Source: a virus. Taken from it: a stretch of DNA of 27,940 nucleotides. Both the position numbers and the translations under genes were made by a program. Positions 1,786 through 18,580 of this stretch are shown in pieces. The notes beneath the pieces were generated by a model that searched no databases, had not been told where the DNA came from, and worked only from the letters and a program-made list of their open reading frames with translations. The stretch is taken from IMG/VR virus record IMGVR_UViG_3300032116_001059, positions 1 through 27,940 of that record; one strand, given 5' to 3'. Numbering within the stretch: the stretch's first letter is position 1; each line of letters starts with the position of its first letter.

Positions 1786-3698
1786 TGTTCGACGGTGCCG
1801 CGGATATTGACGCGGCCTGGCGCGCTGGGATCAAGCCGGAGCCGTTGCTCACCGTCTCGGAATGGGCCGAGCGCAACCGCATGCTGTCGAGCAAGGGCAG
1901 CGCCGAACCCGGCCCATGGCGCAACAGCCGCACGCCATACCTGGCCGAGATCATGGACTGCCTCTCGCCGTCCCACCCCGCCCAGCGCGTGGTGTTCATG
2001 AAGGGCGCACAGGTGGGCGCCACGGAGAGCGGCAACAACTGGATCGGCTACGTGATCCAGCACGCGCCGGGACCGATGCTGACGGTTCAGCCTACGGTGG
2101 AGCTGGCCAAGCGGTTCAGCCGCCAGCGCATCGAGCCGTTGCTGGAGGAGACGCCATCCCTGCGCAACCTCGTCGCGGCGGCGCGCGAGCGGGACAGCGG
2201 CAACACCATGTTGTCCAAGGATTTTGCCGGCGGCCAGCTTGTGCTCACCGGCGCGAACAGTGCCGTGGGCCTGCGTTCCATGTCGGCGCGGTATTTGTTC
2301 ATGGATGAGGTGGACGCCTATCCCGGCGACGTGGAAGGCGAAGGCGATCCGATCGCGCTGGCGTCGGCGCGTGCGCGCACCTTTGGCCGGCGGAAGAAGG
2401 AATACCTCGTCTCAACGCCCACGATCGAAGGCGCCTCGCGGATCGAGCGCGAATATCTGGCGTCGGATCAGCGGCGGTTCTTCCTGCCGTGTCCGCACTG
2501 CGGCGCGATGCAGTGGCTCCAGTTTGAGCGGCTGCGCTGGGACAAGGGCCGGCCGGAGACGGCGGCTTATGTCTGTGCCGAGTGCGAGGTGCCGATCGAG
2601 GAGCGGCACAAGACGTGGATGCTGGGCGCGGGAGAGTGGCGGCCAACTGCGGAAGCAGAGGCGGCGCACGTCGTCGGGTTTCATATTTCGTCGCTCTACT
2701 CGCCGGTAGGCTGGCTGTCCTGGGAGCAGATCGCGCGGGATTGGGAAGCGGCGCAGGGTAAGGATCAGGCGCTCAAGACGTTCAAGAACACCGTTCTTGG
2801 GCTCACTTGGCAGGAGCAAGGCGACGCGCCGGAGTGGGAACGCCTCGCCGAGCGCCGCGAAGATTACCGCCTCGGCACGGTGCCGGAAGCTGCGGCGGTG
2901 CTCACCGCCGGCGTGGACGTGCAGGACGATCGGCTGGAGTGCGACGTGTGGGCGTGGGGCGAGGGCTTTTCGTCCTGGCTTGTGGATCACGTCAGCATCG
3001 CTGGCAGTCCGCGTGAGGCCGAGACATGGACGCGCCTGTCCGAAATCCTGAACCGCGCATGGCCGCGCCAGGGCGGCGGACTGGTGCGGATCGGCCGGGC
3101 CTGCGTCGACACCGGCGGCCGGGACACGGCGGCCGTCTATGGCCACCTGCGCGGCTTGGCTGACAGCCGGATCGCGCCGGTCAAGGGTGTGGAAGGCTGG
3201 AACAAGGCGGCGCCGGTGCAAGGCCCGACGCCGGTGGACGCGCAGGTGAACGGCAGGAAGCTGCGCCGCGGCCTCAAGCTGTGGACGGTGAGCGTATCGA
3301 CGTGGAAGGCCGATCTCTACCGGCGCCTCTGGCTCAAGCGCACCGAGAGCGAGGAATACCCGCGCGGCTGGGTGCATCTGCCGCAGGGTGTTGAGATTGA
3401 GTGGGTCAAGCAGCTCGTCGCCGAGCAGCTTCGCACCGTGACGGATCGCCGCGGCTTCCAGCGCCAGGAATGGGCGAAGCTGCGCGACAGGAACGAGGCG
3501 CTGGACTGCGCTGTCTACGCGCGCGCGGCGCTGTGGCTGATGGGTGCGGATCGCTACGGCGATCGCTTCTGGCGCCAGGCGGCGGACGCGATCGAGCCGG
3601 AGCATGTGCCGGTGGCCGTGACGGTGCCGCCAACGGCGCCGGCCGTGACGGCGCCGCCTGCGGTGCGGTTCCGCGATAGCAACTGGATCAGACGATAG
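1785..3698 (+). CDS. Terminase large subunit (GpA family)
   Basis: ATP-driven packaging motor and headful/cos nuclease of the lambda GpA family, acting at the portal vertex. The N-terminal ATPase carries a deviant Walker A, KGAQVGATES (about residues 73-82), and Walker B LFMDEVD (171-177). A zinc-ribbon pair CPHC (236-239) and CAEC (264-267) lies between ATPase and nuclease, as in other GpA proteins. The nuclease domain shows the acidic motifs AGVDVQDDRLE (375-385), CVDTGGRDT (440-448) and NEALDCAVYA (570-579). At 637 residues the length is normal. The last 40 residues are a Pro/Val/Ala-rich tail, probably the portal-contacting end. The start overlaps the small subunit stop; no better in-frame start exists. 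The following gene has its own GGGAGGG ribosome site. Confidence 0.97.
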   Translation: MFDGAADIDAAWRAGIKPEPLLTVSEWAERNRMLSSKGSAEPGPWRNSRTPYLAEIMDCLSPSHPAQRVVFMKGAQVGATESGNNWIGYVIQHAPGPMLTVQPTVELAKRFSRQRIEPLLEETPSLRNLVAAARERDSGNTMLSKDFAGGQLVLTGANSAVGLRSMSARYLFMDEVDAYPGDVEGEGDPIALASARARTFGRRKKEYLVSTPTIEGASRIEREYLASDQRRFFLPCPHCGAMQWLQFERLRWDKGRPETAAYVCAECEVPIEERHKTWMLGAGEWRPTAEAEAAHVVGFHISSLYSPVGWLSWEQIARDWEAAQGKDQALKTFKNTVLGLTWQEQGDAPEWERLAERREDYRLGTVPEAAAVLTAGVDVQDDRLECDVWAWGEGFSSWLVDHVSIAGSPREAETWTRLSEILNRAWPRQGGGLVRIGRACVDTGGRDTAAVYGHLRGLADSRIAPVKGVEGWNKAAPVQGPTPVDAQVNGRKLRRGLKLWTVSVSTWKADLYRRLWLKRTESEEYPRGWVHLPQGVEIEWVKQLVAEQLRTVTDRRGFQRQEWAKLRDRNEALDCAVYARAALWLMGADRYGDRFWRQAADAIEPEHVPVAVTVPPTAPAVTAPPAVRFRDSNWIRR

Positions 3699-3708
3699 GG
3701 AGGGCTGC

Positions 3709-3909
3709 ATGGCGTGGACTGCTTCGCAGCTCGCGGCGCTGGAGGATTCGATCGCCACCGGCACCACCCGCGTCACACACGACGGCAAGACGGTAGAGTA
3801 TCGCTCGCTGGCTGAGATGATCCAGGTGCGGAACCTGATGCGCGCCGAGATGGCATCGTCTGCTGCCGGCCCGCGCTCCACGCTTGTGCGCTTTAATCGG
3901 GGCTGGTGA
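3709..3909 (+). CDS. gpW-like head-tail connector protein
   Basis: A 66-residue protein between terminase and portal, the slot held by lambda gpW, which stabilises packaged DNA and prepares the head for tail joining. The pattern fits the family: a first helix (SQLAALEDSIATG), a short beta hairpin (VTHDGKTVEYRSL) and a second helix (AEMIQVRNLMRAEM). A GGGAGGG stretch four bases before the ATG gives a strong ribosome site. Its stop overlaps the portal start (TGATG). The fold and context agree, but the sequence is short and I cannot align it formally. Confidence 0.75.
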   Translation: MAWTASQLAALEDSIATGTTRVTHDGKTVEYRSLAEMIQVRNLMRAEMASSAAGPRSTLVRFNRGW

Positions 3910-5396
3910 TGGGCCTGTTCTCCTGGCTCGGCTTCGGCGCCAAGCGCAGCTACGCGGCGGCGGTGAACACGCGCAACACGACGTGGCGTGACAGCGGCCT
4001 GTCTGCCACGTCCGAGGTAGGCGCGGCTGCGCTCACTGTGGCGCGGCGGGCGCGCGAGGCGGTGCGCAACAACCCATACGGCGCGCGCATCGTGGACTTG
4101 TGGGCCGGCAACGTCGTCGGGCCTGGGATCACGACGACGTGGCGCGACGCGCCGCACGCCGACGCCTGGCGCAAGTGGGCGACGGGCCTGGACTGCGACG
4201 CGGAAGGCCACCTGAACTACGCGGCCATGCAGGCGCTGATCATGCGCGGCGTGGTCGAAAGCGGCGAGGTGTTCATTCGCTTCCTGTATGGCCCGGTGTC
4301 TCCGGCCAACCCGGTGGGGCTGCGACTGGCGGTGCTGGAAAGCGATTTCCTGGACACCACGAAGAACGGCATCCTGGCCGGCGAGCGGACGGTGCAGGGC
4401 ATTGGCCTGGACGCGGACGGCCGGCCGGTGGCCTACTGGCTGTATCGCGAGCACCCTGGCAACGCCTACCTCCTGGGCGCTCGATCGCTGGAGAGCGTGC
4501 GCGTGCCGGCGACGGACGTCATGCACGTCTACCGAAAGCGCCGGCCGGGCCAGTTGCGCGACGTGTCGTGGCTGGCGCCGGTGCTGATGCACTTGCGCGA
4601 TCTGGCGGAATACGAAAGCGCGCTGCTGCAGAAAGCCAAGATCGAGGCGTGCCTTGCCGGCGCGGTCACTGACGACACTGAGGGCGTGATCGGCTCGGCT
4701 GGCGGTGAAGGTGCCGGCGCGGATGGACTGTTCCGCGATGCGCGCGGCAACGTGGTGGAGACGCTGGAGCCGGGCCTGTTGCTCTACCGCCGCACGAACG
4801 GCGCCGGCTCGTCTTTCGAGGCGATCAACCCGTCCTCCAGCGGCGCGCATGTGAGCCTCGCCAAGCGTGCGCTGGAAGCCGCGGCTGTCGGCACCGGCCT
4901 CACCTACGATCAGGTGTCCGGCGATCTGACGCAGGCCAACTACTCCAGCCTGCGCGCGGGCAAGATTGAGTTCCGCCGGCTGTGCGAGCAGATCCAATAC
5001 GGGATGATGATCCCGATGTTGGTGGCGCGCACCGCCGCACGGTTCCACCAGCAAGGCGCCATGTTGGGCCTGTGGCCTGCCGACATGCCGGAGGGCGTCG
5101 AGCACGTCCCGCCGCCGCATGAGATGATTGATCCGCTGAAGGACACGAACGCGCTCATCGCCCAGGTGCGCGCCGGCTTCGTGCCGCAGTCCGAGGCGGT
5201 GGCGAGCTTCGGCAACACCATGGCCGAGATGGTCGAACGCTACCGCACCGACAACGCGATGCTGGATGACGCCGGGATTGCGCTCGACACCGATCCGCGC
5301 CGTGTCGCCAAGTCCGGCACGGCGCAGGACGCGGCGCAGCTCGCCGCGATCGAGATCGCGGCGACGGGTGCGGCGCTGCCGCAGACGCCGGCCTAA
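3909..5396 (+). CDS. Portal protein (lambda gpB family)
   Basis: Forms the dodecameric ring at one capsid vertex through which DNA enters and leaves. The sequence follows lambda-type portals: an N-terminal arm, then ARREAREA-like helix text (VARRAREAVRNNPYGARIVD) ahead of the conserved stem/clip region with GLRLAVLESDFLD, DVMHVYRKRRPGQLRDVSWL (about residues 200-220) and the C-terminal LTYDQVSGDLTQANYSSLRAG segment that marks the crown domain. Length (495 residues) is typical. Translation may start at ATG 3909 (GGGG six bases upstream) or at the adjacent GTG 3906; the two differ by one residue. It ends 14 bases before the protease-capsid gene. The gene is intact and fits its neighbours. Confidence 0.95.
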   Translation: MGLFSWLGFGAKRSYAAAVNTRNTTWRDSGLSATSEVGAAALTVARRAREAVRNNPYGARIVDLWAGNVVGPGITTTWRDAPHADAWRKWATGLDCDAEGHLNYAAMQALIMRGVVESGEVFIRFLYGPVSPANPVGLRLAVLESDFLDTTKNGILAGERTVQGIGLDADGRPVAYWLYREHPGNAYLLGARSLESVRVPATDVMHVYRKRRPGQLRDVSWLAPVLMHLRDLAEYESALLQKAKIEACLAGAVTDDTEGVIGSAGGEGAGADGLFRDARGNVVETLEPGLLLYRRTNGAGSSFEAINPSSSGAHVSLAKRALEAAAVGTGLTYDQVSGDLTQANYSSLRAGKIEFRRLCEQIQYGMMIPMLVARTAARFHQQGAMLGLWPADMPEGVEHVPPPHEMIDPLKDTNALIAQVRAGFVPQSEAVASFGNTMAEMVERYRTDNAMLDDAGIALDTDPRRVAKSGTAQDAAQLAAIEIAATGAALPQTPA

Positions 5397-5410
5397 CGGA
5401 GTTTCCGAAC

Positions 5411-7384
5411 ATGACCGACGAAACCAGCGACGCCGCTCCGGCTGTCGTGACGGCGGCGCGCGCCCTGGCCGCGCCCATGACGATCGACGCCGAGGCCCGC
5501 ACCGTTGACGTGGTGTGGAGCACTGGCGCGCGCGCTCCGAACTACGTGCCGCCGCTGGGCCAGATCATGGAAGAACTGGACATGAGCGGCAACGCCGTGC
5601 GGATGGCGCGTCTCGCCTCCGGCCAGGCGCCGCTGCTGGACAGCCACAGCCACTACTCGGCGTCGTCGGTGATCGGCCGCGTGCTGTCTGCCAGCGTGTC
5701 CGGCGGGCGCGGCGTGGCAAAGATCCAGATTTCCCGCGCGCCGGACGTCGAACCGATCTGGCGCCGGTTGGAGGAAGGCACGCTCCGCAACGTGAGCGTG
5801 GGCTACCGCGTGTTCCGCTACGAGCCGATCCAGGCGGACGGCCAGACAATCCACCGCGCCGTGGATTGGGAACCCTACGAAATTTCTCTGGTCGCGGTCC
5901 CTGTGGACGCCGCGGCCGGTGTGCGCGGTGAGGCTTCGGCCATCCGCGCGACTGCGCTGGAGCCGGACATTCTGGCCGAGGCGCTTCCCGTCCCTGAAAT
6001 CACGGAGTCTGTCATGACCACCGAGAACCACGCGGCGGACTCTGTGCCCGCCGCCGATGCTACCCGCGCCACCCAGGATGCCGTCACTGCCGAACGGTCC
6101 CGCATGGCGTCCCTGACGCCTGTCGTGACTGCCGCGCGTGGCCGCGTGCCGCAGCAGGCGCTGGATGACCTGCATGTCCGCGCGCAGTCCGAAGGCTGGA
6201 CGGCCGAGGCCCTGCGCGCGGCCCTGTGGGACGCCGCCGTCGCCAGCGCGCAGCCCGCCAGCGTGCCGGCTGCGCCGGCCGCGCAGCGCGGCGAATCCAA
6301 CGACGATCCGACCGTCATGGCCCGCGCCATGGGCCACGCGCTCGCCGTGCGCGCCATGCCGTCGCTCGCCACCGACGCTGCGATCGACCCGCGGTTCCGC
6401 GAGTTCGCCTCGCTGCGTCCGTCCGACATGCTGATGGAGCTGGCGGCGGCCCGTGGCGAGCGTGTCAGCCCGCGCGATCGCCTGCGCCTCATTGAGCGCA
6501 GCTTCCACACGTCGAGCGACTTCCCGCTGCTGCTGGAAGCCGCCGGCAACAAGATGCTGGAGGCCGGTTTCACCGCGGCGGCGCCGAGCTATCGCCAGTT
6601 TTTCGCCCAGCGCGCTTTCAATGACTTCAAGGCGCACAAGTTCTTGACTGCGGGGGACATGCCGGCGCTGGTGAAGCTGGAAGAAGGCGGCTCCATCAAG
6701 GCCGGCACCATCTCGGAGAAGCGTGAAACCATCACACCTGACACCTACGCGCGCCAGGTGCGGATCACCCGTCAGGCGCTGATCAACGACGATCTCGGTG
6801 CCTTCACCGATTTCGGCGCGATGATCGGCCGCCGCGTGGCGGATCTTGAGAACGCGCTGGCCTATGCGCTGGTGAACACCGCCAACGGTGACGGCCCCAC
6901 GCTGGCCACTGGCAACGCGGCCGTGTTCGGCACCGGCGCCAGCCGCGCCAACAAGGCCAGCAGCGGCGGCGCGATCAGCGAGGCCACTCTGGATGCCGGC
7001 TACGCCTCGATGATGGCGCAGACGAGCCTGGACGGGATCAAGCTGAACCTCACGCCTGCCATCCTGCTCACCGGCGCGGCCTACCGTGGCGCGGCCATCC
7101 GCTACACGACCCGCATCACCGCGGATCAGGGCGCCAACGTGGGCCTGTATGCCGGCCTGTCGCCGGTGTCGGACGCGAACATCGTCGGCAACCGCTGGTA
7201 TCTGTTCGCCTCGCCCTCTGCCGCGCCCGTCTACGTCTACGGCTACGTGAACGGCCAGACGGCGCCGCAGGTGCGAGTGCATCAGTATGTGCCGGGCACC
7301 GATGGCGTGGCCGTCGAGGTGGTGCATGACTTCGCCGTGGGTGCGATCGGGCACCAGGGCGGCTATTTCAACGCCGGCGCCTGA
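5411..7384 (+). CDS. Prohead protease / major capsid protein fusion
   Basis: One 657-residue chain carries two functions that are separate genes in many phages. Residues about 20-175 are a HK97-type prohead protease: likely catalytic His in LLDSHSHY (79 or 81), Ser in RNVSVGY (129), and an acidic partner near WEPYEISLVAVP (Asp152/Glu157). Residues about 200-340 are a low-complexity Ala-rich, helical linker that resembles a scaffold (delta) segment. From about residue 365 (FHTSSDFPLLLEAAGNKML) onward it matches Mu gpT/HK97-like major capsid proteins. The protease would release the capsid part during assembly. An in-frame ATG at 6014 (residue 202) with its own GGAG suggests a shorter product containing only scaffold plus capsid. 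Such fusions are known in databases; the joined ORF is clear here with no frameshift. Confidence 0.92.
   Translation: MTDETSDAAPAVVTAARALAAPMTIDAEARTVDVVWSTGARAPNYVPPLGQIMEELDMSGNAVRMARLASGQAPLLDSHSHYSASSVIGRVLSASVSGGRGVAKIQISRAPDVEPIWRRLEEGTLRNVSVGYRVFRYEPIQADGQTIHRAVDWEPYEISLVAVPVDAAAGVRGEASAIRATALEPDILAEALPVPEITESVMTTENHAADSVPAADATRATQDAVTAERSRMASLTPVVTAARGRVPQQALDDLHVRAQSEGWTAEALRAALWDAAVASAQPASVPAAPAAQRGESNDDPTVMARAMGHALAVRAMPSLATDAAIDPRFREFASLRPSDMLMELAAARGERVSPRDRLRLIERSFHTSSDFPLLLEAAGNKMLEAGFTAAAPSYRQFFAQRAFNDFKAHKFLTAGDMPALVKLEEGGSIKAGTISEKRETITPDTYARQVRITRQALINDDLGAFTDFGAMIGRRVADLENALAYALVNTANGDGPTLATGNAAVFGTGASRANKASSGGAISEATLDAGYASMMAQTSLDGIKLNLTPAILLTGAAYRGAAIRYTTRITADQGANVGLYAGLSPVSDANIVGNRWYLFASPSAAPVYVYGYVNGQTAPQVRVHQYVPGTDGVAVEVVHDFAVGAIGHQGGYFNAGA
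6004..6016 (+). promoter_or_regulatory. Possible internal translation start for scaffold-capsid product
   Basis: Within the fusion gene a GGAG (6004-6007) stands six bases before an in-frame ATG (6014-6016, residue 202). It lies at the end of the protease domain, exactly where a stand-alone scaffold plus capsid protein would begin (MTTENHAADS). In lambda, gene C contains an internal start for scaffold Nu3 in the same way. The site is seen directly; its use is inferred. Confidence 0.45.
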
Positions 7385-7407
7385 TAGCGCGAACAGGAGG
7401 CAGTAAC

Positions 7408-7755
7408 ATGGCTACTAACTTCGTGCAGGGCGCGGTGGACACCTTCCAGGTGGCCGCGCCTCACGCCGTCGTGTCCGGTCGCGTCGTCGTGGTCGGCACC
7501 AACCTGTTTGGCGTGGCCCTCTCCAACGCCGACAGCGCCGCCGCGGTGGCGCTGTCTCGCGGTGGCGTGTGGTCCTTCGCCAAGCCGAACGCCGTCAGCA
7601 CCAGCGCCGCCGCTGGCGCCTCGGCCTACTGGGACAACACCAACAGCCAGATCACGCTGTCGGCCACGTCCAACACCAAGATCGGCGTGTTTGCGGCGGC
7701 GGTGTCCAACACCGACACCACCGCGACCGTCATCCTCAACAACGCCGCGCTCTGA
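7408..7755 (+). CDS. Head decoration protein (DUF2190-like)
   Basis: A 115-residue, beta-rich, Ala/Ser/Val-rich protein directly after the capsid gene, the place of lambda gpD-type stabilising proteins. The N-terminus MATNFVQGAVDTFQVAAP and the GVALSNADS and GVWSFAK text follow the DUF2190 (capsid cement) pattern. A strong AGGAGG ribosome site lies ahead of the ATG, fitting a protein needed in hundreds of copies. Charged residues are few, as in other surface trimers of this class. The next gene begins three bases after its stop. Confidence 0.8.
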   Translation: MATNFVQGAVDTFQVAAPHAVVSGRVVVVGTNLFGVALSNADSAAAVALSRGGVWSFAKPNAVSTSAAAGASAYWDNTNSQITLSATSNTKIGVFAAAVSNTDTTATVILNNAAL

Positions 7756-7758
7756 TCC

Positions 7759-8505
7759 GTGGCAGTAGCAGACACCGCACCGGCCGTTCATCTGTTTCGC
7801 CAGCCGGCGGGGCTGATGATCGGTGCGCCTATGTATGGCGGTGTCTGCTACGACAACTTTCTGCTGGGCGTCTTTGATCTTCAGCGCGAATGCTACGACC
7901 GGAAGATCCCGCTTTCGCTGCACACCATCCGCAACGAGAGCCTGATCCCGCGCGCACGCAACCGCGTGTTGGCGGACTTCCTTGAGAGCCACTGTTCGCA
8001 CCTAGTGTTTATCGACTCTGATATAGGCTTCACCGGCCGCGACGTGCTGCGGCTGGTGGCGCACGACAAGGCGCTGATCGGCGCCACCTACGCGAAGAAA
8101 AACCGCGAACGCTATGATCCCGCTTTCGTGCCAATGCCGCACGGCGTCACCGTGACAAAGTCTGAGCTGGTCGAGGTGCAATGCCTCCCCGGCGGCTTCA
8201 TGTGCATCTCGCGCGACATGGCGCAGCGCATGGCTGGCGCGTATCGGGAACTCTGGTATCGCGACGGCAACACGGTAGAGCGGCGAGTGCTGGACCTGTT
8301 CGGCACCTACACCGACGACGAGACGCGCCAGTATTGGAGCGAGGATTACGCTTTCTGCCAGCGGTGGCGCGCCATCGGCGGCGACGTGTGGCTCGATCCG
8401 AACATCCTGCTCACTCACAACGGCACGACGGTGTTTGACGGCGATCCGCGCTCCGTGTTCGTCAACCCGCCGGAACCGGCCAAGGCGAAGGCGCGCGGCA
8501 AATGA
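7759..8505 (+). CDS. Glycosyltransferase-like protein (GT-A fold) in the head gene cluster
   Basis: A 248-residue protein that looks like a GT-A glycosyltransferase, using a nucleotide sugar and a divalent metal. Evidence is an N-terminal Rossmann-like opening (LMIGAPMYGGVCYDNFLLGV), a Glu-Ser-x-x-x-x-Arg-Ala-Arg-Asn segment (NESLIPRARNRVL), and a DxD-type metal motif FIDSDIGF with Asp86 and Asp88. Later LPGGFMCISRDM and SEDYAFCQRWRAIGG resemble the acceptor/catalytic half of family 2-like or Anp1-like enzymes. It starts with GTG three bases after the decoration gene and its end overlaps the next structural gene by four bases (ATGA), so it is expressed with head proteins. It may glycosylate a virion protein or host surface sugar; substrate unknown. 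The motif is seen, the function inferred. Confidence 0.7.
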   Translation: MAVADTAPAVHLFRQPAGLMIGAPMYGGVCYDNFLLGVFDLQRECYDRKIPLSLHTIRNESLIPRARNRVLADFLESHCSHLVFIDSDIGFTGRDVLRLVAHDKALIGATYAKKNRERYDPAFVPMPHGVTVTKSELVEVQCLPGGFMCISRDMAQRMAGAYRELWYRDGNTVERRVLDLFGTYTDDETRQYWSEDYAFCQRWRAIGGDVWLDPNILLTHNGTTVFDGDPRSVFVNPPEPAKAKARGK

Positions 8506-8822
8506 CAGCTTTCGCTGTGGCGCGCGCCACCCTCCACGCCGACCCCAACATGGCCGAGCCCGCCAGCTACCGCCGGCCGCCGTGGCCATGGGCATCGGCC
8601 CGCATCATCCGCACCGCGCCGAACGAGATCATGGGCGGCCTCGGCGGCCCTGGCGCACGTGCCGGCTACCTCTACGCCGACGTGCTCACCGCGGCGCTGG
8701 CCTACACGCCGCAGCGCGGCGACGAGGTGAAGCTGGGCGCCACCGTCTACACCGTCGAGGACGCCGAGCGCGACACGCTGGGCCTGTCCTGGCGGCTCAC
8801 CTTGTCGGCGCTGATGCCATGA
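8502..8822 (+). CDS. Head-tail joining protein (gpFII-like)
   Basis: A 106-residue protein with the features of small head-tail joining/stopper proteins: after a short variable N-terminus (about 45 residues) comes a compact beta-rich part ending RGDEVKLGATVYTVEDAERDTLGLSWRLTL, broken here only for description. That 'define value, type of field, then wide-ranging strand' pattern (KLGATVYTVEDAE) is common to gpFII-type adaptor proteins. It lies between head genes and the tail terminator, as expected. Both ends overlap neighbours by four bases (ATGA). Identification depends mainly on position and size. Confidence 0.6.
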   Translation: MTAFAVARATLHADPNMAEPASYRRPPWPWASARIIRTAPNEIMGGLGGPGARAGYLYADVLTAALAYTPQRGDEVKLGATVYTVEDAERDTLGLSWRLTLSALMP

Positions 8823-9271
8823 GCACGCCACTCCGCGAGGCGGCGCTGGCGGCCATTGCCGCGCGTCTCACGTCCCAGCTTTCCGGCGTCACCGTCGAGC
8901 GCGCGCGTCGCGCTCCGGTGGACACCGACGCCGAACACCTGCCGCGCGTGGTGCTTACCGCAACCGACTGGACGGCAGACGAGACGGCCGAGCCTCTGGC
9001 CACCCACTACACGCTGGCGTTCGTGGTGTCCGGCTACGTGCGCGGCTCCAGCGATCTGGCCATTGAGCAGGCACTTTCCGCGCTCCACGCGCGTGTCGTG
9101 GCGGCTTTGGCTGGCTGGACGCCTGCGGTGTCCGGCGTGGGCGATGTGGCCGAGGACGGCGCGGAAATCCGGCTCTACGACGCCGACGAAAGCGCCAAGC
9201 CGGCCGGCGAGTTTGCGGCGCGGTTCAGCGTCCTCTGCATTGGCGGCCTGGGCACTCCCTACGCCGCGTAG
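8819..9271 (+). CDS. Tail terminator / minor tail protein (gpU- or gpZ-like)
   Basis: A 150-residue protein starting at the ATG that overlaps the previous stop (ATGA); the frame is open further upstream but that part is only shadow of the preceding genes. It begins with an alpha helix (LREAALAAIAARLTSQLSGV) followed by alternating strands (RVVLTATDW, YTLAFVVSGYV) and a second helix (AIEQALSALHARVVAALAG), the alpha/beta fold of tail terminators that cap the tail tube and dock it to the head. Position before the tail tube gene supports this. After its stop comes a 71-base untranslated block with hairpins. Confidence 0.65.
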   Translation: MSTPLREAALAAIAARLTSQLSGVTVERARRAPVDTDAEHLPRVVLTATDWTADETAEPLATHYTLAFVVSGYVRGSSDLAIEQALSALHARVVAALAGWTPAVSGVGDVAEDGAEIRLYDADESAKPAGEFAARFSVLCIGGLGTPYAA

Positions 9272-9279
9272 CCTCATCT

Positions 9280-9320
9280 GGCCTTGGGCAAGCCTGACCG
9301 CAGCGCCGTGACGGCGCCGC
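9280..9320 (+). other. Two-hairpin intergenic block, copy 1
   Basis: Directly seen: a weak stem at 9280-9294 (GGC-C-TT, loop GGGC, AA-GCC) followed by a strong stem at 9300-9320: GCGCCG (9303-9308), loop TGA, CGGCGC (9312-9317), continued past one A/C mismatch by a GC/GC pair. The tail tube ATG follows 22 bases later, after CCCTTCGATGGAG. The same block with a covarying pair stands at 18540-18580. There is no long T run, so a classical intrinsic terminator is unlikely; mRNA stabilising, processing or translation control is possible. Confidence 0.65.
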
Positions 9321-9342
9321 TTTCCCTTCGATGGAGCCTCGC

Positions 9343-10521
9343 ATGTCCACGAACCTGGTGCGGATGAAGTTCGCGGCCGTTGCCGCCAAGATCGAGACGA
9401 CGGTTGGCACCGACGCCATCGCCGGCACTCCGGCGGCATCCGACTGGATCGGGACGGACTGTGAGGTGCAGTTTGACCCGCAGGTGATCGACATCCCGGA
9501 ATACAACGGTTCGTTGGACCGTTCCGCCGGGATCGTCGGCGGCCTGCGGCCCCGCCTGCGCCTGCGGATGCCGCTGCGTGGCTCCGGCACTGCCGGCACC
9601 GCGCCGGAGTGGGGCAAGCTGCTGCGCTGCTGCACGTTCGCGGAGACGGTGACGAGTTCCGCCGTGGGTGCGCCGACTGCCGCCACCGCCGGCACCACCA
9701 CCACCGTCACCGCCGCCACGCCGTTCGGCACGACGGCGCAGCAGTATCGTGGGATGCCGCTGATCGTCACTGGCACGGCGGCCACCACCACGGGCATCAT
9801 CGACTACACCGCCGGCCGCGTGATTACCGTGGGTGAGACGGCCAGCACGGCCTTCACCACGGCGTCGCTGCTTCAGGTGCCGATCAACGTGCTCTACAGC
9901 CCGACCTCGGACGAGAGCGTTTACAAGACGGCCACCGTCTACTTCTACGCGGACGGCCTGCTGTGGACGTTCACCGGCGCGGTGGGGACGGCCTCGATCG
10001 AACTCACCACCGGCGGCATTGGGTTCATCAGCTTTGAGCTGCGCGCGCAGTTCGCCACCAAGTCCGCCACGGCTCTGCCGGCCGGCGCGGCAACGGCCGC
10101 CAACACGCGCGTAGCCGTCGTGCCGCCGCGCTTCGTGGCTGGCAAGTGCCAGTTGAACAAGGCGCTGGCGCAGGTGCGGACGCTCTCGATCGGCGCCGGC
10201 GTCAACGTGATCCTGCCGGACGATCCCGAGAGCGCGGAAGGCTACGGCCCGGCGCTTCCGGTGGAGCGCGACACCGCCGGCACGCTTGATCCCTACATGA
10301 ACACCAGCAACTCGGTGTCCCTGTTCTCGGCCTTCCGCGCTGGAACGGCGATGAGCCTCATGGCGATCATCGGCAGCACGGCCGGCAACCGCATGTTGCT
10401 CACCGTGCCGCTGGCCAAGGTGGTCGGCATGGACCCCGGCAACCGCGAGGGCCTGGGCCAGCACGGCATCAGCTTCCAGGCGGACGGCGCCGACGCGGCT
10501 TTCTACATCTCCCACTTCTAA
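9343..10521 (+). CDS. Tail tube (major tail) protein
   Basis: A 392-residue beta-rich protein in the place of lambda gpV, expected to polymerise as the tail tube. The N-terminal text (FAAVAAKIETTVGTDAIAG, then CEVQFDPQVIDIPEYNGSL) follows tail tube proteins of the 'phage_tube' type, where a first domain of strands is followed by an insertion of Thr/Ala-rich loops (about residues 110-160) and a second copy-like domain. I chose the ATG at 9343 rather than 9331, because GGAG at 9333-9336 lies six bases before it. It is preceded by a 71-base untranslated region with two hairpins, so unlike most neighbours it is not coupled to the gene before. The longer than usual size probably reflects an added Ig-like domain. 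Confidence 0.8.
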   Translation: MSTNLVRMKFAAVAAKIETTVGTDAIAGTPAASDWIGTDCEVQFDPQVIDIPEYNGSLDRSAGIVGGLRPRLRLRMPLRGSGTAGTAPEWGKLLRCCTFAETVTSSAVGAPTAATAGTTTTVTAATPFGTTAQQYRGMPLIVTGTAATTTGIIDYTAGRVITVGETASTAFTTASLLQVPINVLYSPTSDESVYKTATVYFYADGLLWTFTGAVGTASIELTTGGIGFISFELRAQFATKSATALPAGAATAANTRVAVVPPRFVAGKCQLNKALAQVRTLSIGAGVNVILPDDPESAEGYGPALPVERDTAGTLDPYMNTSNSVSLFSAFRAGTAMSLMAIIGSTAGNRMLLTVPLAKVVGMDPGNREGLGQHGISFQADGADAAFYISHF

Positions 10522-10533
10522 CCCGGAGCCTTC

Positions 10534-11133
10534 ATGGCCGACGAAACGCCTGTCGTGTTCAGCGCGCGCGAAACCGAGTGGTTCACGCCACCGAGATCGC
10601 CGCGCTCCTACCTCCTCCAGCCACTCACCTACCGCGAGCGTTCGGCCATGCGCCGCGAGCTGCGGCGCGTCGGCGGTATCGCGCCGGAGCGTGCGGCGCT
10701 GCTGGAGGGAATGCGCGAGGCGTTGCGCCAGGTGCAGCCGGCCAACCTCGACGCCTGCCTTGCCGTCGTGGACGAGGCCGAGGCGGCACCGGAAGATACC
10801 AGCGTGCAGGCGCGGCTGGCGGTGGTGGAGCAGGCTGTGGCGGACGTGCCGGCCTATGCCGCGCTGATCGACGCGCAGATGCGCCACAACGACGCGGTGC
10901 CTTACGTCGCGGCGCGCTACGGCCTGCGCGACTGGCGCGGCCCTGGCCTGCCGGTGTTCGCGCGGGTGGACGGCGTGGTGCCTGACGATCTGCTGGAAGA
11001 ACTGCCGGCGGTGGAGATCGGCATTGTCGGCTGGCGTGCCTACGTGCTGGCCATGCTTGGCCGGAGTGCGGAGGGAAACTCCGCGGCGCTCTCGCCGTCG
11101 CACGAGAGCCCGACGCCTACGCCGGAGGGCTGA
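10534..11133 (+). CDS. Tail assembly chaperone (gpG-like)
   Basis: A 199-residue helical, acidic protein between the tail tube and tape measure genes, the classic position of the tail assembly chaperone. It opens with FSARETEWFTPPRSPRSYLL and the LTYRERSAMRRELRR segment typical of these proteins, followed by helices. Near its 3' end the in-phase heptamer G GGA AAC at 11073-11079 permits a -1 shift into an open frame that runs to 11390. The unshifted product ends in a Ser/Pro/Thr tail (SPSHESPTPTPEG). Confidence 0.75.
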   Translation: MADETPVVFSARETEWFTPPRSPRSYLLQPLTYRERSAMRRELRRVGGIAPERAALLEGMREALRQVQPANLDACLAVVDEAEAAPEDTSVQARLAVVEQAVADVPAYAALIDAQMRHNDAVPYVAARYGLRDWRGPGLPVFARVDGVVPDDLLEELPAVEIGIVGWRAYVLAMLGRSAEGNSAALSPSHESPTPTPEG

Positions 11134-11390
11134 GGCCCGTTGATGGCTCTGACTGGCTGGTGGCTGGCGAGCCTTGGCCGGGCGACAACCCACGGCTCAC
11201 GATCGGGCCGGAATGGCATGAGTTCGTGCGGCTTTGGGCGGCCTGTCGCGGTGAGGCCGGCACCGCTCACTGGCCGGACGTTGGCGGCGTGGCGGATCAA
11301 GCGGCGTGGGTTGTCGATGCGTTCGCCACGCTCACGTCCATCGACGCCGACATGCGCGAGGCTGATCGCAAATTGCGAGGGCGCGGATGA
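10534..11390 (+). CDS. Tail assembly chaperone frameshift product (gpGT-like)
   Basis: The product expected when ribosomes slip by -1 at 11073-11079: 182 residues shared with the G-like chaperone followed by about 103 residues read in the other frame (GEPWPGDNPRLTIGPEWHEF, DVGGVADQAAWVVDAFATLT), total near 285. The minus-one frame is open without a stop from the slip site to TGA 11388-11390, and has no good start of its own: the GTG at 11160 lacks a ribosome site. The extension carries the Trp-rich, acidic features of 'T' domains that bind the tape measure. Gene order G, GT, tape measure is as in lambda. Its stop overlaps the next start (ATGA). Confidence 0.8.
11073..11079 (+). promoter_or_regulatory. 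-1 ribosomal frameshift slippery site
   Basis: GGGAAAC, a canonical X-XXY-YYZ heptamer in the right phase (codons GGA AAC for Gly-Asn of the 0 frame), close to the GGGAAAG site of lambda G/GT. After slipping, tRNAs repair on GGG AAA and reading resumes at CTC 11079. A GC-rich, potentially structured stretch (CTCCGCGGCGCTC) follows. Seen directly; efficiency unknown. Confidence 0.8.
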
Positions 11391-12112
11391 GCCTCCTACA
11401 CGCAAGCGTCACCGGCAACCTTCGCGCCGCCATGGATCAGCAGGTGCGGCAGGTGGCCGGTGCGCTGCGGCGCGCAGTGGCGACGGCCGGCAAGCAGACA
11501 CAGGACGACTTGCGCGCACAGGCGCGCGGTGCCGGCTTCCGCGACGGCGGCCGTGCGCTGGCGAATAGCTGGCGGCTGAACGTCTACCCGCGGCCGGGCG
11601 TTGGCGCCACGTCGCTGCGGCCGGCGGCGTTGGTGACGAGCCGGATGGCCGACGTGGTGCGGATTTTTGAGACGGGCGCGGTGATCCAGGCCAAGGGCCG
11701 GCGCTACCTCGCCATTCCGACGCCGGTGAACCGCGTGGGCAATCGCCGCAGCAATGACGGCCAGTTTCCCGTGCGCGTGACGCCGCAAGAGATGTTCCGC
11801 GCCGGCGGCTTTGTCCGGCCGACTGACAATCCCGCCGTCAAGCTGTGGTGTCTGCCGCTGCGCACCGAGACGACGAAGCGCGGCCGCATCCAGCTATTCG
11901 CGGGCCGCTATGCGCGGGTGCTCACGGGCAACCGCAAGGGCGCCGAAGCCATGCGCCGCCAGTTTGCTGCCGAGCGGAGGTTCGTCCCGATGTTCTTCCT
12001 CATGCGCCAGGTGTCGCTCCGCAAGCGGCTGAACGTGGCGCAGGTGGAAGCACGCGCGCCGGGCCGGTTCGCGTCGGCGGCACAGTCTGAACTGGCGAGG
12101 GTGGCACGATGA
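11387..12112 (+). CDS. Tail-associated protein (DUF6441-like)
   Basis: A 241-residue basic protein between the chaperone fusion and the tape measure gene. It starts with a helix (LHASVTGNLRAAMDQQVRQV) of the kind found in HK97 gp10-like minor tail components, then has RRYLAIPTPVNRVG and a RFVPMFFLMRQVSLRKRLNV segment. The last part (LRKRLNVAQVEARAPGRFAS) is typical of the proteins grouped as DUF6441 in alphaproteobacterial phages, as far as I recall; I cannot verify this by search. Its function is unknown; a tail completion or connector role is suggested by position. Both ends overlap neighbours (ATGA). Confidence 0.55.
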   Translation: MSLLHASVTGNLRAAMDQQVRQVAGALRRAVATAGKQTQDDLRAQARGAGFRDGGRALANSWRLNVYPRPGVGATSLRPAALVTSRMADVVRIFETGAVIQAKGRRYLAIPTPVNRVGNRRSNDGQFPVRVTPQEMFRAGGFVRPTDNPAVKLWCLPLRTETTKRGRIQLFAGRYARVLTGNRKGAEAMRRQFAAERRFVPMFFLMRQVSLRKRLNVAQVEARAPGRFASAAQSELARVAR

Positions 12113-15100
12113 GCGGTAGCCGTCCCACCGTTGGCATCCGCATCTCGGCCGAGGGTGCGGAGCAGGTAAAGCGCCAGCTCGAGGCGCTTGGCCCGGCCGG
12201 CGAGCGCGCATTTCAGACGATCCAGGCCGCCAGCCGGAACGCGCAGCCGGAGTTTCAGAAGCTCGGCACGTCGGTGGACGTGGTGCAGCGCGCTTTCATC
12301 GGCATGGGCGGCTCGCTCGGCAGCGTCGGCTCCGTGTTCACCGGCGTGTCTGCCGTGGCTGGCGGCCTCACCACGGCCATCGTGGCGCTCGGCGCGGCTG
12401 CGGCTACCAGCGCCGTCGCGATCGCCAAGGCCGGCGACGAGGCCACCGCCACAATGGCGCGGCTTGCCTCCTCCACCGGCGGCGTGGCGCAGGCGACGCA
12501 GGTCTACGAGCAGCTTTTCAAGCTGTCGCAGCAAACCGGCGTGGCGGTGGCGGAGAGTGCCGGCGCGTTCTCCCGTTTTGCCGTTGCGGCAAAGGAAATC
12601 GGCGGCACCAACGCTCAGGTGCTGCAACTGGTGTCCGGCATCCAGAAGGCCGGCATCGTGGCGGGCACCAGCGCGGCCGAGGCGGCGGCGTCGGTGCAAC
12701 AGCTTGGCCAGGCGCTGGCTTCCGGCACGCTCCAAGGCGACGAGCTGCGCTCTTTGCTGGAGAACATGCCGCAGCTTGCGCAGAAACTGGCGCAGGAACT
12801 CGGTGTGTCGATCGGCCAGCTTCGGCAAATGGGCAGCGAGGGCAAGCTCACCGCGGACACGGTGTTCCCGGCGCTGCTCCGCGCGACTGAGAAGATCGGC
12901 GCCGAGTTTGAGAAGATGCCGGTCACGATGTCCCGCGCCAAGGACATACTGCTGGCGGCGACGCAGGACTTTGGCGAGCGGCTGGACCGGATCACTGGCC
13001 TGTCGCAGACGTTCGCGCGGTTCATGCAGCAGGGCGCGGCGGCGCTGAGTGCGGCGGGCCGTGTGATCGCGCCCAGCGAGCGTGAGGCGGCGGATCAGGC
13101 TGTCGCGGCGGCTGAACGCCAGAGGGCCAATGTTGCGCGGCAAGTGGCCGCTGAGCGTGCCGCCAGCGCATACGGTGACGTGTCGCCGGGCTTGCAGCAG
13201 GCGATGGAAATTGCCGACGCCGATCTTCAAGCGGCGCTTGCGCGGCAGGCCGAGATCCGCCGCGAGGCGCGCGAGATGGAGCGCGCGGAGGCTGCGGACG
13301 CTGCGCGGCAGTCCGCCGAGGCGGCACGCCAGCGCGCACAAACAGACTTCGACAAGCTGCGCACTGATCTGGACAAGGAATTTAAGCTCCGCAAGGAGAA
13401 CGCGGATCGGCTGAAGATCATCGAGCGCGCGGAAGCCACCGGCGCCATCACCAGCGCGCAGGCAGCGGCACAGCGCAAGCTGGCCAACGATGACTTGGCC
13501 GATGGTCTGAAGAAGCTTGCCGACGCCCACAAGCAGGTGGGCAAGGAAGCCGCCGACGCCGATGCGCACGTCAAGGAATACCTGAAGGATCAGGAGCGCA
13601 TCGCCAAGGAAGCGGCGAAGGCGCAGGAGCAGGCAGCCGAGGCGATCAGGAAATACCACGAGCGCAGCTTCGATGCCGTGGTGTCCATCGGCGAGCGCGC
13701 TTTCGAGCGGTTGGGCGATGCGATGGTGGACGCCTTCGTGTCGGGCCAGGGCGCGGCGGTGAACTTCGGCAACGTGGCGCGCGGCATCGCGGCGTCTGTG
13801 GTGACGGACTTCGCCAAGCTGGCGATCGTGAACCCGATCCTCAACAGCCTGTTCGTGGGCTCTGGCGGGCCGCGGCCGACGCTGAGCGCGGCGTTCGGTG
13901 GCAGCAGCACCGGGATCGGCATGGGCGACTTGCTCGGCCTGTCGTCGCTGCTGCCGAAGGACGGGTTGCTCGGCTCGCTTGGCATCAGCGGCTCCGGGAT
14001 TGGAAGCTCAATTTTTGGCACCGCCGGCACTGTCGGCGGTTCGTTTGCGGATTTGGGCGGTATCACCATCGCAGGCACCGCTGGCACGCCCGGGCTGCTT
14101 GGCACTTACGGCACGTCGCTGATGGGCGGCTCGCAACTGACGCTCGGCGGCGCTTTCGGCAGCATCGGCGGCGGCCTAGCCATCTCCAGCCTGCTCAACT
14201 CCGCCCTCGGCCGCAGTTCGGCACAGTCCACCAACGGCATGATCGGCTCCGGCCTTGGCGGCCTTGCTGGCTTCCTGATCGGCGGCCCGCTCGGTGGTCT
14301 TATCGGCGGCACGCTGGGCGGGCTCGGCGGCGGCCTCATCGGCCCCGGCGAGTCCGTCCGCGGCTACGGCTTCCGCCTCCAGTCCGCCGGCTGGGGGCCA
14401 GACGCCACGCCTACGAACGAGATGGCCAGCAGCCTCCTCCCGATCAGCCGCCAGTATTACAACGAAAGCGGCGCGCAGATGTTTGCCGCGGCGGATCAGC
14501 TTGTCGCGGCCACCAATGCCTACCTCGCCGCGCGCGGCCTGACGGTGGGCGGCGTCTCTGTGGTGGGCGGCAACAAGAACGGCGCGGATTACTCCTGGGC
14601 GGACGCCGGCAACCTGAACGAAGCATTCACCCGCCTGCGCTTCGGCGCCGCCAACGACAACCAGCTGGCGGGGGCGCTGACAGGCCGGACATTCTCCGAT
14701 CTCGGTGGCCTGCAGCAGTTCGTGGAAGGCTTCACCGCCGTCCGCGACACCATCCGCAACCTCACCGAGACGCCGGCGCAGAAGCTGGCGCGGCAGTTGG
14801 AGGAGATCGGCAAGCAGTTTGACGACCTCAGCGCCAAGGCCAAGGAATACGGCTTGAGCGAGGAAGGGCTTGCTGACGCGCGCCAGAAGGCCCTGGACGT
14901 CGTGAAGGCGCAGCAGAACAACGAAGGCCAAGCGATCCGCGCCTACCTCGATCGTTTGAGCACGAACGATCCCAGCGCCTCGCCGGTGGATCGTTTTGCC
15001 GCGGCGCAGGGCATATTCGGTGCCGATCTGGCGGCCGCGCAGTCGGGCGACGCGGCGGCCCTGGCACGGATCACGGGCAGCGCAGACACGCTGCTTGGCG

Positions 15101-15312
15101 CCGGCCGCGCTGCCTACGCCTCCGGCCCGCAGTTCGCCGCGCTGCGCTCCATGGTGGTGTCCAGCCTCGAGAACCTGCCGGCGGTGCGCGGCCTGCCGAC
15201 GAGCCAGCAGCCGATCGACATGGTGCCGCTGATTGACGAATTGGCGGCGCTCAAGATGCAGGTGGCCGAGCTGCGTGAGGAGCTGCGCACGGCGCGGCTG
15301 CGTGCGGCATGA
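12109..15312 (+). CDS. Tail tape measure protein
   Basis: A 1067-residue protein that sets tail length and is ejected with DNA. The N-terminal region has the 'tape measure domain' pattern, seen in SGTLQGDELRSLLENMPQLA and VSIGQLRQMGSEGKLTADTV (about residues 205-255). Residues about 315-520 are charged, heptad-like helices rich in Ala, Arg and Glu (predicted coiled coil), followed by the SFDAVVSIGERAFERLGDAM segment common in the tape measures of this type. A Gly-rich hydrophobic stretch (about residues 709-745, GGLAGFLIGGPLGGLIGG) could span membrane during DNA entry. It ends in another helix (LIDELAALKMQVAELREELR). At 1067 residues the tail would be roughly 160 nm by the usual 0.15 nm per residue rule. 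Starts and ends in ATGA overlaps. Confidence 0.95.
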   Translation: MSGSRPTVGIRISAEGAEQVKRQLEALGPAGERAFQTIQAASRNAQPEFQKLGTSVDVVQRAFIGMGGSLGSVGSVFTGVSAVAGGLTTAIVALGAAAATSAVAIAKAGDEATATMARLASSTGGVAQATQVYEQLFKLSQQTGVAVAESAGAFSRFAVAAKEIGGTNAQVLQLVSGIQKAGIVAGTSAAEAAASVQQLGQALASGTLQGDELRSLLENMPQLAQKLAQELGVSIGQLRQMGSEGKLTADTVFPALLRATEKIGAEFEKMPVTMSRAKDILLAATQDFGERLDRITGLSQTFARFMQQGAAALSAAGRVIAPSEREAADQAVAAAERQRANVARQVAAERAASAYGDVSPGLQQAMEIADADLQAALARQAEIRREAREMERAEAADAARQSAEAARQRAQTDFDKLRTDLDKEFKLRKENADRLKIIERAEATGAITSAQAAAQRKLANDDLADGLKKLADAHKQVGKEAADADAHVKEYLKDQERIAKEAAKAQEQAAEAIRKYHERSFDAVVSIGERAFERLGDAMVDAFVSGQGAAVNFGNVARGIAASVVTDFAKLAIVNPILNSLFVGSGGPRPTLSAAFGGSSTGIGMGDLLGLSSLLPKDGLLGSLGISGSGIGSSIFGTAGTVGGSFADLGGITIAGTAGTPGLLGTYGTSLMGGSQLTLGGAFGSIGGGLAISSLLNSALGRSSAQSTNGMIGSGLGGLAGFLIGGPLGGLIGGTLGGLGGGLIGPGESVRGYGFRLQSAGWGPDATPTNEMASSLLPISRQYYNESGAQMFAAADQLVAATNAYLAARGLTVGGVSVVGGNKNGADYSWADAGNLNEAFTRLRFGAANDNQLAGALTGRTFSDLGGLQQFVEGFTAVRDTIRNLTETPAQKLARQLEEIGKQFDDLSAKAKEYGLSEEGLADARQKALDVVKAQQNNEGQAIRAYLDRLSTNDPSASPVDRFAAAQGIFGADLAAAQSGDAAALARITGSADTLLGAGRAAYASGPQFAALRSMVVSSLENLPAVRGLPTSQQPIDMVPLIDELAALKMQVAELREELRTARLRAA

Positions 15313-16916
15313 TGTTCGGCCCCGTCGCCGCCGCGCCAATTGCGGCCTTCGCCTTCGGCATCACCGCCACCGGTCCCGCCACCAGCGCCACGGCCGAGAC
15401 GGCGCGCACCGAGCCGTCCGTGTGGCTGGTGGAGATCGTCACCGACAGCGCCACCGTGGCCGTCTCCGACCGCGGTTGGCTGAAGGAGCCCTCAGACACC
15501 GCCCCCATCAGCAAATACCCGCCCCGCCTGCTGGAGCCACCAGCCCTTGAGCTGTCGATCCCGGTCTATCCCTCTCAGGAGCGTCGCACCTCGATCAGCG
15601 CCGGTGAACTGCGGATCGCCAACGGCGATGGTGGCGTGAACAGCCTCACTGGCGACTGGACTGTGGCGGGACGTGCCGTAACGATCTACCGCGCGCCGCA
15701 CCGCCGCCCCGTACACGCACCGCGCTCCACCTTCGAGCGCGTGGCCACGCTCAAGACAGCGGCAGCCTTCGGCGGCACGTCCACACTGCGCATGCCGCTC
15801 CAGTCCGGTGCGAAGAACCTCAACGATTCCGCCTGCGGCACCTACACCGGCGCCGGCGGTATCAACGGTGATGCCGCGCTGGCTGGCGCCAACATCCCGC
15901 GCCTGTTCGGCCTGGTGCGCAACATCGTGCCGGTGCAGGTGGAGGCCGGGAAGCTGATCTACCAGCTCCACGACGGCGCCATGTCGCAGGTGTTGGCCGT
16001 GCGCGATGCCGGTGTGGCGCTGGTGCCGGGCGGCGACGTGGCCAGCTATGCCGCGCTCCAGTCCGCGACGGTAGCCGCGGGAACGTTCCAGACATGTCTT
16101 GCCACCGGTCACTTCCGCGTCGGCGCGGTGCCCGTGCGCCTCACCGCGGACGCGCGCGGCTCGACGGCCTTCGGCGGCTATCCGGCGACGGCCGGCGCGC
16201 TCGCGGCACAGATCCTCAGCGTCTCCACCGGCACCACCGTGAGCTCGACGGCCTTCGCGGCATGGCGCGCCGCGGAGGCTGGCATCGTGGTGCGCGGCGG
16301 CACGGCCGCAGAAGCGCTGGACAGGCTTGCAGCAGGCCTCGGCACGGCTTGGTGGGGTACCGACACGAATGGCAACTGGATCGGTGGCGCCGTCACCGCG
16401 CCGGAGACCCTGGGCACCGGCATCTCCATCCGCGAGTCCATGCTGGCCGCCCCGCCTGAGGAAGTTGCCGGTGCGCTGCCGCCGTGGTGGCGGGCCCGTG
16501 TCGGCTACCAGCGCCTCGACCTGGTGCAGTCCGGCGCCGACCTGGTGACGTCCGTGTCGGCGGCGGATCGCGATTACTACAGCCGCCTCCAGCGCACCGC
16601 CGTCGACAGCGACACCGCGGTGCAGTCCGCCTATCCGCTGGCGGTGGACGGCGAGGACGTGCCGGGCGTGCTGGACAGTGCCGGCGAGGCGACCGCGGTG
16701 GCGGCTGACCTGCTGTCCTTGTTCAAGGTGCCGCGTCGCTCCTGGCTGGTGCGCCTCGGTCCGAACGCTGGTGGCCTGCCGTGGTGGCAGTTCGGCCTGG
16801 GCACCCCTGTGCGCCTCACCTGGAAATACGCCTCCGCGCTCACCTCCGGCCGTACACTCCTGGTGCGCTCGATCAGCGCGCGCGGCGACAACGCAGAACT
16901 GGAGCTGTGGGGCTGA
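15309..16916 (+). CDS. Tail tip / baseplate protein, unknown family
   Basis: A 535-residue protein directly after the tape measure, thus expected at the distal tail (hub or distal tail protein region). I do not recognise a family. Visible features: a short Ala/Thr-rich start (GPVAAAPIAAFAFGITATGP), then beta-rich text with an adaptor-like segment SIPVYPSQERRTSISAGELR (about residues 77-96), and a C-terminal half with many short strands and a final RLTWKYASALTSG, LLVRSISARGDNAELELWG reminiscent of beta-sandwich ends in distal tail proteins. It starts with MM; the first ATG overlaps the previous stop (ATGA), the second lies at 15312. Its stop overlaps the next start (TGATG). Confidence 0.6.
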   Translation: MMFGPVAAAPIAAFAFGITATGPATSATAETARTEPSVWLVEIVTDSATVAVSDRGWLKEPSDTAPISKYPPRLLEPPALELSIPVYPSQERRTSISAGELRIANGDGGVNSLTGDWTVAGRAVTIYRAPHRRPVHAPRSTFERVATLKTAAAFGGTSTLRMPLQSGAKNLNDSACGTYTGAGGINGDAALAGANIPRLFGLVRNIVPVQVEAGKLIYQLHDGAMSQVLAVRDAGVALVPGGDVASYAALQSATVAAGTFQTCLATGHFRVGAVPVRLTADARGSTAFGGYPATAGALAAQILSVSTGTTVSSTAFAAWRAAEAGIVVRGGTAAEALDRLAAGLGTAWWGTDTNGNWIGGAVTAPETLGTGISIRESMLAAPPEEVAGALPPWWRARVGYQRLDLVQSGADLVTSVSAADRDYYSRLQRTAVDSDTAVQSAYPLAVDGEDVPGVLDSAGEATAVAADLLSLFKVPRRSWLVRLGPNAGGLPWWQFGLGTPVRLTWKYASALTSGRTLLVRSISARGDNAELELWG

Positions 16917-18532: not shown

Positions 18533-18539
18533 CTCCCCT

Positions 18540-18580
18540 GCCGGCGGGTGGCCGGCTCCGCAGCGTCGTGACGACGCCGC
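18540..18580 (+). other. Two-hairpin intergenic block, copy 2
   Basis: Directly seen: a perfect stem GCCGGC (18540-18545), loop GGGTG, GCCGGC (18551-18556), then at 18560-18580 a stem GCGTCG (18563-18568), loop TGA, CGACGC (18572-18577) with an outer GC/GC pair past an A/C mismatch. Copy 1 at 9280-9320 has GCGCCG/CGGCGC at this point, so a C-G pair became T-A with both sides changed. Spacing to the flanking stop and start matches copy 1 within one or two bases. Confidence 0.7.

Follow-up and report, generated by a model that had tools for sequence, protein, structure and literature searches.

A candidate leader RNA family preceding major capsid and tail tube genes of phages

Introduction

Short 5′ leaders in which a pseudoknot sequesters the Shine-Dalgarno sequence are familiar from translational riboswitches and ribosomal-protein leaders, such as preQ1-II, SAM-II and the S15 leader. 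RNA elements are also established at viral genes and operons: the coat operators of MS2 and PP7 are small hairpins with a conserved defect below the loop, located at the gene start site, and put of phage HK022 is a two-hairpin RNA that targets RNA polymerase where early operons begin. Tailed phages contain hundreds of copies of their capsid and tail tube proteins, whereas the portal, connector and tape measure proteins, encoded in the same late region, are present in few copies; to our knowledge, the setting of this ratio at the RNA level is mostly unknown.

The element described here shares features with each of these systems. Like preQ1-II, SAM-II and the S15 leader, it is a short 5′ leader with loop pairing at or beside the Shine-Dalgarno sequence and possible alternative pairings; unlike them, it precedes phage capsid and tube genes rather than metabolic or ribosomal ones, has no Rfam match, and provides through its gene association no metabolic hint of a riboswitch ligand. 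It resembles HK022 put in having two closely spaced hairpins in a phage leader, but lies within the late region and takes in the ribosome-binding site. With the MS2 and PP7 operators it shares this kind of small, defect-bearing hairpin at the start of a viral gene, although its carriers are DNA phages not known to have a coat-type RNA-binding protein, and the downstream proteins are unrelated. Phage-carried RNA motifs have likewise emerged from comparative genomics, including manA and wcaG, linked to metabolism and exopolysaccharide genes, and the antisense RNA c4; the phage passages of that source give no link to virion genes (PMC2864571), and none of the three was matched in our Rfam scans.

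Against Rfam 15, the window and nine relatives gave no matches at the gathering threshold, and searches with two leaders up to E = 10 returned nothing, or chance-level matches only. The element is also undescribed in the literature searched, which included the phage passages of RNA-discovery surveys and had subscription papers and preprints outside its scope. On comparative grounds, we conclude that it represents an uncatalogued and apparently cis-acting leader RNA, and our best guess is that it controls the start of translation for the most abundant virion proteins.

Results

The window, meaning the whole stretch of DNA analysed, is the 27,940-nt IMG/VR virus record IMGVR_UViG_3300032116_001059. 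An earlier note on this sequence had described a GC-rich hairpin, here termed P2, that recurs 9 kb away with a compensated base pair, and the hairpins are indeed present as GCAGCGCCGTGACGGCGCCGC at 9300-9320 (site 1) and GCAGCGTCGTGACGACGCCGC at 18560-18580 (site 2). The change from C-G to U-A on both arms was confirmed, as were the common A-C mismatch, two outer G-C pairs, CCCTT and GGAG, and the matching spacing from the upstream stop codon to P2 (28 nt at site 1, 27 nt at site 2) and from the end of P2 to the start codon (22 and 21 nt, respectively). These are the only two copies of the P2 21-mer in the window at ≤3 mismatches, their own reverse strands aside, compared to a chance expectation of 0.09. 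Each 21-mer is more stable than its shuffles (z = -2.3 and -2.0), and the whole leaders are not (z = +0.4 and -0.2); selection is therefore invisible to thermodynamics alone, and comparison across sequences was needed. P2 is not followed by a U-run, the next letters being UUUCCCUUC or AUCCCUUGG, and neither site appeared in a terminator scan. No sigma-70-like promoter occurs at either site in a scan of window positions 1-20000.

Site 1, on the plus strand, follows a gene whose last base is 9271 and precedes one that begins with ATG 9343. This ATG is the correct start; the mechanical ORF list gives 9331, where the ATG falls within GATGGAG. The variable hairpin P0 (CUACG-CCG-CGUAG, 9259-9271) shares bases with the stop codon of the preceding gene and stands just 5′ of GCCU (9271-9274), the putative upstream partner of the P1 loop (PK1) according to family covariation of its last base with the loop base. 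P1 itself (GGC-C-UU-GGGC-AA-GCC, 9280-9294, with loop GGGC at 9286-9289) was previously recognized as a weak stem, and is now supported by covariation (helix 1) and by a covariance-model match. P2 follows as GC-A-GCGCCG-UGA-CGGCGC-C-GC with its A-C mismatch (helix 2, likewise covarying), and then UCC at 9323-9325, the 5′ strand of a candidate helix P3, which can pair with GGA at 9333-9335; helix 3 is 93% paired with little variation. The block GAUGGAGCCU (9330-9339) combines the Shine-Dalgarno GGAG (9333-9336) with GCCU (9336-9339), the putative downstream partner of the P1 loop (PK2), again assigned by family covariation.

At site 2, also on the plus strand, CCCC at 18535-18538 is a possible upstream loop partner from its sequence only, and the weak stem is replaced by a P1-like hairpin (GCCGGC-GGGUG-GCCGGC, 18540-18556) that lies inside the covariance-model match. 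P2 (GC-A-GCGUCG-UGA-CGACGC-C-GC) also lies within this match, and UCC at 18582-18584 would pair with GGA at 18592-18594. The Shine-Dalgarno GGAG (18592-18595) is followed by GCCC (18596-18599), the downstream partner predicted for the loop GGGU by analogy with family covariation. The gap from GGA to ATG (9343 or 18602) is 7 nt at both sites. Model R1 matches site 1 at 9262-9338 (80.5 bits, E = 9e-16; this sequence is in the training set) and site 2 at 18524-18597 (42.1 bits, E = 1e-7; outside the training set), and the third-best match in the window reaches only E = 0.19.

The exact P2 21-mer pattern was found in 24 IMG/VR stretches, including phages unrelated to the window, and is always intergenic and before a start codon. 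Of the looser patterns, GCAGCGNNGTGANNCGCCGC gave at least 120 IMG/VR matches, many of them chance matches within genes, and TTGGGCAAN{3,22}GCAGCGN{8,10}CGCCGC gave 111. At least 120 matches were obtained with TTGGGCAAN{22,52}CCCN{2,4}GATGGAGCC, which places no demand on P2, the P1 stem or anything upstream, with about 4 evident chance matches among the 108 distinct sequences listed; a scan for loops other than GGGC also produced at least 120. The covariance-model search that the earlier note had proposed matched both window sites and many other phages, amounting to 178 loci and 221 distinct instances; a few of the weakest, which extend to E = 0.05, may be false. Altogether the family, which is mainly alphaproteobacterial, is represented in over 150 IMG/VR contigs and in a few prophages. 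An ORF on the same strand starts close behind the element in 212 of the 221 distinct instances, and 174 of 189 distinct downstream ORFs begin with ATG, usually 6-11 nt after GGA. No locus carries copies on both strands.

The order of parts in the family, from 5′ to 3′, is P0, GCCN, a short linker, P1, a few nucleotides, P2, UCCC, GAUGGAGCC and the start codon. The two hairpins of the earlier description are thus real, but form part of a larger layout that also contains the upstream GCCN, a P1 loop with two potential partners, and the Shine-Dalgarno sequence. P1 consists of a variable stem with a bulged C, UU, the loop NGGC, and AA (loop region CUU-NGGC-AA). The P0 region, taken as the 33 nt before GCC, has a mean folding z of -1.51 compared to -0.22 in control stretches (n = 120). 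P2 mostly has 7-8 pairs, and a loop that is mostly GNRA-like or GGA(C/U). Its mismatch takes the form A-C or C-C in 153 cases; counted from the loop, it stands at position 5 or 6 in 145 of 181 hairpins. With its mismatch, a stem of this size falls below the length of an RNase III site (about 11 bp or more). GCCC occurs 12-16 nt upstream of UUGGGCAA in most copies, although it was absent from the search pattern.

Many copies consist of P2 without P1, and a few of P1 only, namely those in Rhodobacter phage RcapNL and in L015, which is related to the window's tube gene at 71% identity and has the loop CGGC with the upstream motif GCCG. Closer relatives of the tube gene (L010-L014, 77-78% identity) have no leader copy, indicating gain and loss of the leader independent of the gene. 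Extra hairpins are inserted between UCCC and GAUGGAG in L119, L156, L194, L391, L403, L406, L419, L420, L432 and L437; the GCGC-GUGA-GCGC type recurs among them. Terminator-like hairpins with U-tracts stand directly 5′ of GCCN in L445, L446, L475, L511, L519, L598 and L619, leaving scant room for a promoter. A P2-only copy in L147 (357-417, minus strand) is abutted by ACTATAG, which resembles a T7-type promoter core; this arrangement would place P2 at the extreme 5′ end of the mRNA.

Covariation was evaluated for the P1/P2/P3 structure in 56 diverse sequences. Paired cells amounted to 95.5%, compared to 78.9 ± 0.9% after shuffling, with 139 double-change cells (44.7 ± 5.5 shuffled) and a covariation score of 0.425 (0.135 shuffled). 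Shifting the partners by 1-3 columns abolished the signal, the P1 and P2 stems were recovered unprompted by RNAalifold, and G-U pairs are tolerated in the stems. P3 (UCC/GGA) stays a candidate helix, with little variation and with GATGGAGCC part of the search pattern. The earlier proposal of a selected RNA fold is thus strongly supported, through family-wide covariation rather than the single change within the window, and we place very high confidence in the fold of the leader family on this comparative evidence.

To relate the P1 loop to its candidate partners, the first loop base was compared with N of the upstream GCC[N] and of the downstream GGAGCC[N] in 150 non-redundant copies, using permutation within GC terciles; relatedness was controlled by simple identity filtering, and composition by these GC strata. 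Watson-Crick matches numbered 92 for the upstream base (59 in permutations, p ≤ 5e-5) and 77 for the downstream base (57 in permutations, p ≤ 5e-5), and control positions adjoining each N gave no significant signal (p = 0.09-0.98). Among loops with A, C or U in place of G, the downstream signal persisted (30 versus 23.3, p = 0.007; 26 versus 18.3 at 65% redundancy, p = 0.001), and the upstream signal alone was not significant (19 versus 16.3, p = 0.2), such that the upstream case rests on the contrast between G-loops and A-loops. The downstream signal may be compositional in part, as the pairs are mostly GC and pyrimidines are common after the Shine-Dalgarno sequence. In addition, GCC follows the Shine-Dalgarno sequence in 54 of 72 copies with P1 and in 12 of 58 without (p = 7e-10), a conservative figure insofar as the script used the first GGA met and thereby undercounted P1 copies with GGAGCC. 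Covariation with both GCCN partners suggests two alternative pairings, one of which would bury the Shine-Dalgarno sequence.

The DNA patterns that yielded the bulk of the family do not constrain the downstream proteins. Behind the P1+P2 copies are 114 distinct proteins, many of which are unmatched in Pfam; counts within a class may overlap. Major capsid families include PF05065 (39), PF03864 (5), PF09950 (3), PF20911 (2) and PF11651 (2), with single capsid matches to PF17236, PF10124 and PF13252, and a match to the structural protein PF11681. Tail tube families comprise PF06199 (14), PF18906 (10), PF16460 (5), PF16461 (4) and PF08813 (3), and PHROGs agree with Pfam on this capsid and tube association. 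P2-only copies precede scaffold, capsid, portal and other genes. Contigs with two copies typically have one before a capsid gene (405-477 aa) and another before a tube gene (140-310 aa) about 3-6 kb apart, an arrangement present in many contigs, or else a scaffold and capsid pair.

Within the window, the gene behind site 1 (9343-10521, plus strand; 392 aa from ATG 9343) is, by its predicted fold, a major tail tube gene: the AlphaFold model (pLDDT 81) has its best PDB matches in the tail tubes of P74-26 and T5, and its product has no Pfam or PHROG profile match. The gene behind site 2 (18602-18988, plus strand) encodes a 128-aa virion protein assigned to Pfam Gp80, which is fibre-like, and to phrog_240, a head protein. 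The idea that the leader precedes abundant virion proteins is supported for the family as a whole and fits the first gene, but the product of the second gene, which matches a fibre or head family, is not necessarily abundant. The window's own capsid gene (5411-7384) encodes capsid and protease together (657 aa, phrog_4523), and is without the leader that other phages have before theirs. Elsewhere in the window, an RCC1-like repeat protein gene at 19732-20841, containing 150-nt DNA repeats and matching PF00415 in 7 stretches (E = 2e-80), lies among tail and fibre genes, and a gene of degenerate 60-nt (20-aa) repeats at 22340-23800 has no PHROG match. A 22-nt perfect inverted repeat (GTGTTGGCCGTGCGCGATGCCG) occurs at 15990-16011 and 26522-26543, and is common to a late-region gene and a minus-strand ORF at 25851-26741, a putative integrase.

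Among 385 sampled Alphaproteobacteria genomes, model R1 matches 5 at E ≤ 1e-3; among 349 from the wider phylum, the Bauldia MAG is its only match at E ≤ 1e-4. In this MAG, a tube gene and a capsid gene are each preceded by a good copy, with 10 kb between the two copies, and two relatives of the MAG also carry the element. Given these positions and the rarity in chromosomes, the copies are ascribed to a prophage, and a host element was rejected. Pattern matches in genome contigs were taken as chance because nearly all lie within genes without the flanking motif; the exceptions are L276 (Bauldia), which fits, and L322, which is doubtful and unmatched by R1. A general feature of gene transfer agents (GTAs) was also rejected, since the pattern is no commoner in 295 Mesobaculum-family genomes than its reversed control. 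Searching the leader consensuses against 50,697 phages with blastn gave nothing convincing, and among the isolated-phage relatives of the capsid and tube genes examined, only RcapNL has a copy.

Discussion

The comparative data show P1 and P2 helices, association with particular genes, sense orientation, a fixed distance to the start codon, and covariation of the loop with both partners. The anatomy of the leader suggests a role in translation initiation more than in setting transcript ends. The RNA stands before major capsid and tail tube genes, or in some phages before scaffold or other genes. It shares sequence with the ribosome-binding site and could adopt two states. In one, the P1 loop NGGC would pair with the upstream GCCN, with the Shine-Dalgarno sequence then restrained only weakly. 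In the other, the loop would pair with GCCN after the Shine-Dalgarno sequence; because GGAGCCY is complementary to both UCC after P2 and NGGC in the P1 loop, pairing both would bury the Shine-Dalgarno sequence, with GGAGCC in a continuous helix and initiation blocked. Between these halves of the element, P2 may be a conserved hairpin used for recognition or stacking. The outcome would be tuned translation initiation of capsid and tube genes within a long late mRNA, and covariation with both partners is the trace expected of such a two-state RNA.

We consider the case evenly balanced that this is a leader family before the most abundant virion genes that tunes initiation via alternative loop pairing. 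The switch mechanism, as deduced from sequence, is in our view similarly poised between right and wrong. A somewhat bolder statement, which we hold tentatively and at rather less than even weight, is that the two-state RNA has been passed among unrelated phages of (mainly) Alphaproteobacteria and sets or times the synthesis of capsid and tail tube. We infer that the pairings alternate in time, that they affect translation, and that a trigger is involved, which may be a conserved host factor, the ribosome or folding kinetics; any trigger in trans should be something common to hosts or phages, and not the virion protein itself, as the downstream proteins are unrelated. Copies without P1 and P1-only copies (L015 and RcapNL) indicate that not every member can rely on one obligatory switch, and the need of capsid genes for a translational off state is not obvious.

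The main rival is a static leader with only one relevant pairing, in which the hairpins would make the 5′ end of an mRNA, processed or newly started, more stable and keep the ribosome-binding site open, with the loop pairing to the upstream GCCN only. The association with the highest-copy virion proteins would be consistent with such a role, as would the upstream GCCC, unasked by the pattern, and the variable P0, sometimes terminator-like with a U-tract, that ends just before the element. However, it leaves unexplained why the base after GGAGCC tracks the loop base and why the presence of P1 predicts GCC after the Shine-Dalgarno sequence, and we regard it as rather unlikely. Less probable again is a protein operator, in which P2 would bind a putative conserved RNA-binding protein, of host or phage origin, and translation would be repressed or activated as a result. 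Although the positioned mismatch, the preferred loops and the P2-only copies before scaffold, capsid and portal genes would suit an operator, P1-only copies exist, and self-regulation by a virion protein is unlikely because the downstream families are unrelated. A CsrA/Rsm site (ANGGA in the Shine-Dalgarno sequence) was set aside, as the P2 loop is mostly GNRA-like and not GGA.

A transcriptional role, either as a put-type antiterminator or as a leaky terminator/promoter boundary before capsid and tube genes, appears improbable. HK022 put is likewise a two-hairpin RNA, and some phages have terminator-like hairpins and U-tracts upstream (TTTT before GCC in 9 of 120), but most copies are without an upstream terminator, P2 is without a following U-run, and window positions 1-20000 hold no sigma-70-like promoter; furthermore, the conserved part takes in the Shine-Dalgarno sequence at a fixed distance from the start codon. 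Least of all do we favour a DNA element, such as a palindromic operator or a recombination seam, which we consider very improbable. The 21-mer is near-palindromic and the element moves between unrelated genes, yet nearly all instances are in sense orientation to the downstream gene, without any locus having both strands. Conservation of the asymmetric mismatch and loops, tolerance of G-U pairs, and covariation of the loop with distant single-stranded partners also argue against DNA as the functional form.

If the two-state leader RNA acts on initiation as proposed, a conserved RNA at two high-copy genes for non-homologous proteins would provide a direct and portable handle on virion protein ratio. 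Where phages are unannotated, the leader could also mark their capsid and tube genes, and it may be usable as a strong, regulated expression part. The P1-only copy of RcapNL (JQ066768.1, L651:9871-9921), located before a GTA orfg9-like major tail gene, offers a convenient laboratory system.
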